Source: Hyphomicrobiaceae bacterium
GTDB taxonomy: Bacteria; Pseudomonadota; Alphaproteobacteria; Rhizobiales; Aestuariivirgaceae
Assembly: GCA_900298995.1 (NCBI GenBank)
Contig: OMIC01000007.1
Coordinates: 62,001-126,000, forward strand
Direction of reading: 5' to 3'
Length of the DNA stretch: 64,000 nucleotides
The stretch's first letter is position 1. Each line of letters starts with the position of its first letter. The notes under the pieces are model-generated. The model saw only the letters and a program-made list of their open reading frames with translations, searched no databases and was not told the DNA's origin. Shown here piece after piece: positions 62,470-63,671 of the stretch. The position numbers were made by a program, and so were the translations under genes.

Positions 62470-63576
62470 TCAGGCGGCAGTCGCCATTTCAGCGCGAAGC
62501 TGCTGGCGCAACATGTCGATGGGAACCAGCGTCAGCCCCTTCTTCACATGCCAGAACGTCCAGCCATTGCATGCTTCCGAACCTTGGACATGGGCGCCGA
62601 TCTTGTGGATCGAGCCCGAGGCATCGCGGCAGGCGATGGAGCCATCCGCGCGCACGCGCGCGGCAATGCGGTTCGAGGGGTCGAACAGCATGTCGCCTGC
62701 CTTCACCAGTCCCCGTTCGATCAGCGAACCAAAGGGAACGCGCGGCTCGGCGCGTTTGCCGGTTGTCACCTTGAGGGCCTCGAGCGGCAGGGGCTCGGTG
62801 GCATCGATGCGCGCCAGTGCTGCCTCGGCGTAGTCGTCCTCGCGTTCGATGCCGATGAAGTTGCGTCCGAGCTGCTTGGCGGCAACACCCGTCGTGCCGG
62901 TGCCGAAGAACGGGTCCAGGATCAGATCGCCGGGATTGCTGCTCGAGAGCAATACGCGATGCAGCAGGGCCTCTGGCTTCTGCGTCGGGTGCAGCTTGTC
63001 GCCTGACTTGTTCTTGAGACGCTCTCCGCCCGTGCATAGCGGCAATGTCCAGTCAGAGCGCATCTGGAGGTCGTCGTTGAACACCTTCATGGCTTCATAG
63101 TGGAAGGTGTATTTCGTGTTGGCGTCGCGCGCGGCCCAGATCAGGGTCTCATGCGCGTTGGTGAAGCGGCGTCCGCGGAAGTTGGGCATTGGGTTGGTCT
63201 TGCGCCAGATCACGTCATTCAGGATCCAGAATCCCAGATCCTGAAGAATGGTCCCGACACGAAAGATGTTGTGATAGGAGCCGATGACCCAGAGCGCGCC
63301 GCTGGGCTTGAGAATACGGCGGCATTCGGACAGCCAGCCACGCGTGAAGCGGTCATAGACTTCGAAGCTCTCGAACTGATCCCAGTGATCATCGACCGCA
63401 TCAACCTTGCTCTGGTCGGGGCGCGTGAGGCTGCCCGTCAGCTGCAGGTTATAGGGCGGATCGGCGAAGACGAGATCGACGGATGCCGCAGGGATCTTCT
63501 TCAGTTCGGTGAGGCAATCGCCCACCAGAATCCGATTATGCAAGGGCCGACTATCCGGCCGGGTCTCAAAGCCCAT
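62470..63576 (-). CDS. ccrM: CcrM-type adenine DNA methyltransferase (GANTC)
   Basis: CcrM methylates adenine in GANTC in the alphaproteobacterial cell cycle. The 368-residue beta-class enzyme has DPPYNLQL (39-46), the SAM motif [26 protein letters not shown], the target recognition region with [20 protein letters not shown], and the C-terminal extension of CcrM ([23 protein letters not shown]) that recognises DNA. The start at 63576 has GAGGGGAAG upstream. The upstream region carries three GANTC sites and a CtrA-like half-site. Confidence 0.95.
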
Positions 63577-63624
63577 CCCACTTCCCCTCTGCGCAGACGC
63601 AACACACTCAAGGCCGCGCATGAT

Positions 63625-63671
63625 GAATCCTGCGGAGTCGGGCGTGAATCCCTTTCCTCTGAAATGGTTAA
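63625..63671 (-). promoter_or_regulatory. ccrM upstream control region: CtrA-like half-site and three GANTC sites
   Basis: On the minus strand TTAACCAT (63671-63664), identical to the Caulobacter CtrA half-site consensus, overlaps the rnhB stop. Downstream are GANTC sites at 63646-63650, 63635-63639 and 63625-63629, spaced 11 and 10 bp. The ccrM ATG is at 63576. No clear -10 box is assigned. Confidence 0.6.

Follow-up and report, generated by a model that had tools for sequence, protein, structure and literature searches.

Conserved methylation sites in the predicted core promoter of the methyltransferase gene ccrM suggest methylation-linked autoregulation in the Aestuariivirgaceae

The window, a 64,000-nucleotide (64-kb) stretch of contig OMIC01000007.1, carries ccrM on its minus strand (62470..63576). 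The gene encodes an orphan GANTC adenine methyltransferase of 368 aa; we found an N6_N4_Mtase domain (PF01555), the DPPYN motif and a C-terminal RAMA domain (PF18755), as in CcrM orphan methyltransferases, and by homology the product probably methylates GANTC. It is the single CcrM match in its own 2.99-Mb genome, and a Shine-Dalgarno-like AGGGGA stands directly 5' of the ATG. Upstream on the same strand, across a gap of 91 bp, is the 3' part of rnhB (RNase HII, PF01351; 63668..64000), which extends beyond the window edge. The rnhB TAA stop (63670-63668) falls within a TTAACC word, an arrangement seen in the window and in 33 of the 68 loci with rnhB upstream; rnhB was found 5' of ccrM in 68 of 98 loci. 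TTAACC is also kept in family loci whose rnhB stop is elsewhere.

Three GANTC sites lie in the gap, all given here for the minus strand from which ccrM is read: site 1 (GATTC, GAATC on the plus strand; 63646..63650), site 2 (GACTC, GAGTC on the plus strand; 63635..63639) and site 3 (GATTC, GAATC on the plus strand; 63625..63629). Upstream of them is TTAACCA (63665..63671, minus strand), a CtrA-type half-site whose TAA doubles as the rnhB stop. The initial annotation had placed GAATC, GAGTC and GAATC at 63625, 63635 and 63646, and TTAACCAT at 63671-63664 on the minus strand, and we found every one of these positions exact. GANTC is strongly under-represented in the window, with 109 sites where dinucleotide shuffles average 300, and the ccrM triple is the sole GANTC triple within 30 bp there. 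A triple of such span arises somewhere in the 64 kb in 6.3% of random placements of the 109 sites, and at least three GANTC in the 91-bp rnhB-ccrM gap has a Poisson P of about 0.0006. Density by itself is mildly unusual and the evidence from this one sequence is moderate; the comparative evidence is strong. Hence, the case for the triple being meaningful comes from its conservation, and density alone is suggestive only.

CcrM was searched in 100 genomes, the window's own included, and 99 matched (G084 gave no match); G030 was dropped as weak (1.8e-8), which left 98 loci for upstream reading: 36 from the genus, 23 from the rest of the family (Aestuariivirga is placed by the NCBI taxonomy in the Hyphomicrobiales, Aestuariivirgaceae) and 39 from other families of the order. 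We found TTAACC, the half-site expected near a CtrA-activated promoter, no more than 220 bp upstream of ccrM in 57 of 59 family loci; in the other two, L046 and L063, the contigs stop 33-41 bp upstream of ccrM. Counted from TTAACC, the full layout with GANTC at +21, +31 to +33 and +41/+42 is present in 31/36 genus genomes, in 11/23 other family genomes and in 0/39 genomes from other families of the order. All three sites occur in 42 of the 59 family genomes and are not seen together in 17, in two of these through contig ends; hence, having all three is not essential. Family loci hold a mean of 3.0 GANTC in the 100 bp next to ccrM, versus 0.23 in random control stretches of the same loci. In the other families, the mean for the same 100 bp is 0.44, and 1 of 39 loci reaches at least three.

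Among the 57 family loci with TTAACC, site 1 is present in 48, at +21 and as GATTC every time. Site 2 is present in 50, at +31 in 17, +32 in 25 and +33 in 8, with C, G, A or T as its N letter, and site 3 also in 50, at +42 in 45 and +41 in 5, with T or C as N. We ran the strict pattern, with every part required, against the GTDB 220 contigs, which represent 84,980 species genomes and may omit the own-genome records; it matched 45 stretches, all before ccrM: tblastn placed 44 of them 80 to 163 bp 5' of the gene, and the 45th (L122), read in sequence, leads into the CcrM N-terminus at the end of its locus. Within the window's own genome, TTAACC-N15-GANTC occurs once. Seven close relatives (L003-L009) have two extra GANTC close to the predicted transcription start, 13 and 19-20 bp past site 3; the window genome is without them.

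To count changes, we used a CcrM tree, made by a quick method, with 59 rows, 57 of them family proteins and the other two G094 and G063; the partial genes of G033 and G035 were left out, G096 failed the frame test, and the counts are approximate because 21 of 56 inner branches were starred. TTAACCA shows no change in 56 tree rows, TTAACC being the chosen anchor and the following A not. Background columns changed roughly 12-28 times each over the same rows. Site 1 appeared or disappeared six times, site 3 changed state six times, and site 2 switched state (offset 31, 32, 33 or absent) 12 times. Within sites 1 and 3, the four letters other than N changed 0 to 8 times, versus 11 for the N column of site 3; among rows that carry the site, the N letter changed at least 8 times in site 2 and at least 10 times in site 3. 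An N that changes freely within a kept GANTC argues for selection for methylatable sites, and the pattern fits selection to keep a word that can be methylated, site 1 being under a further constraint. Hence, the GANTC sites are conserved at the ccrM promoter by family comparison, tree and columns. The initial annotation had named loss of the sites in close relatives as evidence against its reading, and the upstream alignment of relatives gave the opposite result.

An open reading frame crosses the ccrM leader in the window genome. Coding constraint was considered as the origin of the GANTC sites and rejected, since many relatives have this frame closed off between the sites and the start.

Downstream of TTAACC, conservation is strongest for TT at +23/+24 and for A at +47. 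TT is invariant in 57 family loci and 56 tree rows, with no change on the tree, and is kept even in lineages without site 1; A stands in 57/57 family loci and 55/56 tree rows, with one change, and is kept also where the overlapping GANTC is lost. In the window, these letters belong to TTCACG (63643..63648, minus strand) and CATCAT (63620..63625, minus strand); in the family, the hexamers are TTCAC(G/C/A) at +23 and, by commonest letters, CATAAT at +46, with a 17-bp spacer. Hexamers 17 bp apart are the classic sigma-70 layout. Hence, the near-invariant letters suggest a -35 and a -10 box, and the most likely place of the GANTC sites is the core promoter: site 1 would overlap the -35, site 2 would sit in the spacer at about -26..-22, and the last C of site 3 would be the first base of the -10. 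The predicted transcription start, from the -10/-35 positions only, is at 63613 (minus strand), about 37 nt before the ATG, which puts TTAACCA at a predicted -58..-52. TTAACC was also considered as the -35 itself and rejected: TT and A are the best-kept later letters, and the columns at its would-be -10 are unlike one.

The predicted -10 is weak in the window genome. A site 3 at +42 forces C as the first -10 base; in seven tree rows without site 3, that base is T in four and C, A and G in the other three, and in one lineage that lacks site 3, four genomes have TATCCT or TATTCT as -10. A strict consensus promoter scan of the ccrM upstream region found no promoter, a result consistent with a weak, activator-dependent promoter, of which it is no proof.

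This placement changes two parts of the initial annotation, which had described a GANTC triplet in the ccrM leader facing one side of the helix behind a CtrA-type site. A GANTC triplet preceding ccrM behind a CtrA-type site is conserved and bears the mark of selection; the sites most likely overlap the predicted -35, spacer and -10 instead of the leader. Of the helical phasing, the near-fixed offsets of the outer sites hold, and the middle site drifts from +31 to +33; since its offset varies over three positions, exact helical phase is not the conserved trait. On the core-promoter model, the 21 bp between the outer sites would follow from their seats on the -35 and the -10, and helical facing need not be selected itself.

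The link to CtrA is predicted from the TTAACC site, at which CtrA may bind. The window's own genome holds L152, one of nine Trans_reg_C genes, which we take to be a CtrA-like regulator by peptide words characteristic of CtrA. In 11 of 56 tree rows, TTAACC has another TTAA behind it, at +10 or +11 each time, and none of the 56 rows has one at any other offset from +6 to +17; this matches the CtrA site spacing of TTAA-N6/7-TTAA (PMC4287350). The window promoter has the half-site alone, and TTAACCAT shows no enrichment in its own genome (13 occurrences versus 11 for the reversed word). With its predicted place near -58, the half-site stands farther from the start than the Caulobacter ctrA P2 site (-39), which counts against CtrA activation; the podJ P1 site is at -49 (PMC4287350).

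These parts, their conservation and the selection on methylatability are read from the sequences themselves, and together they suggest how the promoter might work. In the explanation that we prefer and think probable, ccrM has a CtrA-activated promoter that full methylation closes and replication reopens. CtrA would bind TTAACC just upstream of a weak core, TTCACG-N17-CATCAT, into which three CcrM targets are built, one over the -35, one in the spacer and one touching the -10. Full methylation of all three would close the promoter; passage of the replication fork would leave it hemimethylated, and CtrA could then fire ccrM. The CcrM made would remethylate its own promoter and so silence it, giving a negative feedback that acts with a delay and is coupled to replication. 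The start site, CtrA binding, the sign of the methylation effect and the hemimethylated window are the parts of this model that we infer. Against it count the weak -10 of the window genome, the consensus scan without a promoter, the lack of enrichment of TTAACCAT, the distant half-site and the family genomes that do not show all three sites. Methylation-linked control of ccrM is the natural reading; Caulobacter ccrM is already modelled so.

A more specific form of this explanation, about which we are tentative and which has somewhat less than an even chance, is that the -35 and -10 are in part composed of the CcrM target word, and CcrM closes its own gene by marking the sigma contacts directly, without GcrA. 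The -10 would then be held at the weaker C, rather than T, because the methylation site needs C.

The main rival is activation through GcrA: GcrA with sigma-70 RNA polymerase would read the methylated sites, chiefly the one in the spacer, and methylation would turn ccrM on. GcrA is present in the window's own genome and in 28 of 28 relatives searched, and the predicted position of site 2 fits a GcrA-type site. Caulobacter transcription starts that have GANTC between -10 and -35 are switched on at 40-60 min, and GANTC lies at -29/-28 in ctrA P1 and at -24 in podJ P2 (PMC4287350), a likeness to site 2 that extends over the -24 to -29 range of these GcrA/CcrM promoters. Against GcrA stands the sequence context. 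The extended GcrA word is YGAKTCK, with the same paper describing Brevundimonas GcrA as without such preference (PMC7987155); none of the three window sites has this context of GcrA/CcrM-activated promoters, and in the family it is matched by 0/48 copies of site 1, 2/50 of site 2 and 3/50 of site 3 (5/148 sites, 5/57 loci). In addition, methyl groups at sites 1 and 3 could interfere directly with sigma, as both sites are on the hexamers. With these points on its two sides, we consider control through GcrA unlikely, at perhaps a quarter of the weight.

The lesser rival is shielding, in which CtrA, MucR or polymerase would cover the cluster and leave some sites unmethylated, so that the promoter would report protein occupancy and not replication. 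MucR shields GANTC in Caulobacter and Sinorhizobium, and CtrA and CcrM compete on a synthetic promoter with three GANTC (PMC5172544); the window's own genome has a MucR-family gene. However, the same paper finds that functions under hypomethylated promoters are generally not conserved between species (PMC5172544), whereas the ccrM cluster here is, and 14 bp separate the end of TTAACCA from site 1. Shielding seems to us improbable. The GANTC words could also be a by-product of letters kept for the -35, the -10 or another DNA-binding protein, as TT(C) at +23 and A at +47 do persist where GANTC is lost. The hexamers, however, do not explain the GA before TTC, nor do they account for a middle site that lies in an otherwise variable spacer and shifts over three positions, or for the freely changing N, so we hold a by-product to be the least probable of these explanations.

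The preferred explanation, a promoter closed by methylation and fired by CtrA, resembles known control in other bacteria. Caulobacter crescentus ccrM is likewise CtrA-activated with GANTC near its promoter; its two sites, reported by Stephens et al. in 1995, are said to lie downstream of the promoter, whereas here three sites lie in the predicted core promoter with the outer ones 21 bp apart. Transcription of the Caulobacter gene is described as coming only from hemimethylated DNA (PMC2217572), and a 2014 paper calls it 'most probably' methylation-regulated (PMC3973325). The promoters of ctrA P1, mipZ (GcrA/CcrM-regulated, with two juxtaposed GANTC sites) and podJ P2 differ from the window promoter, which has three sites before the methylase gene itself and no YGAKTCK flanks. 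In enterobacteria, clusters of Dam GATC sites in or beside promoter elements gate transcription; there the enzyme and site are others, and CcrM remethylates late in the cell cycle. Agrobacterium tumefaciens belongs to the same order as Aestuariivirga. Its gcrA promoter, with 6 GANTC in 250 bp, is GANTC-rich and repressed by methylation, which lowers its activity even in E. coli; it serves another gene, with no methylase autoregulation, and the section on it gives no -35/spacer/-10 layout (PMC11514494).

GANTC clusters also occur upstream of gcrA. The region upstream of gcrA at L147 615-875 (contig C2 of G000) has 7 GANTC in 350 bp, and among 31 gcrA-family loci examined, a script placed the start in 24, some roughly; at least three GANTC occur in the 250 bp upstream in 20 of these 24, often near -273/-248, -167/-154 and -47. 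A second GcrA-family gene is present in 2 of the 28 relatives searched, G027 (L190/L197) and G049 (L194/L198).

We also considered ccrM as a terminus-proximal sensor of the end of replication and rejected it. In G051, the sole single-contig family genome among 8 searched, gidB, used to mark the origin, lies at 2.35 Mb in a sequence of 7.18 Mb and ccrM at 3.54 Mb, about one third of the way from gidB to the far point; a mid location reported for Rhizobiales agrees with this place (PMC8116508).

Our literature search found no expression or methylome data for the family and no paper joining Aestuariivirga and CcrM. It also found no paper on a three-site core-promoter layout in the open-access literature, with most subscription journals outside its range. 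The kind of control is already known from Caulobacter ccrM and Agrobacterium gcrA; the family-wide three-site core promoter is new.

How CcrM confines its own synthesis to a brief stretch of the cell cycle is only partly understood. With a near-fixed three-site promoter and natural variants without one or two of the sites, the family makes the question directly testable with reporters. If the preferred explanation is true, these bacteria would have traded promoter strength for a methylation mark.
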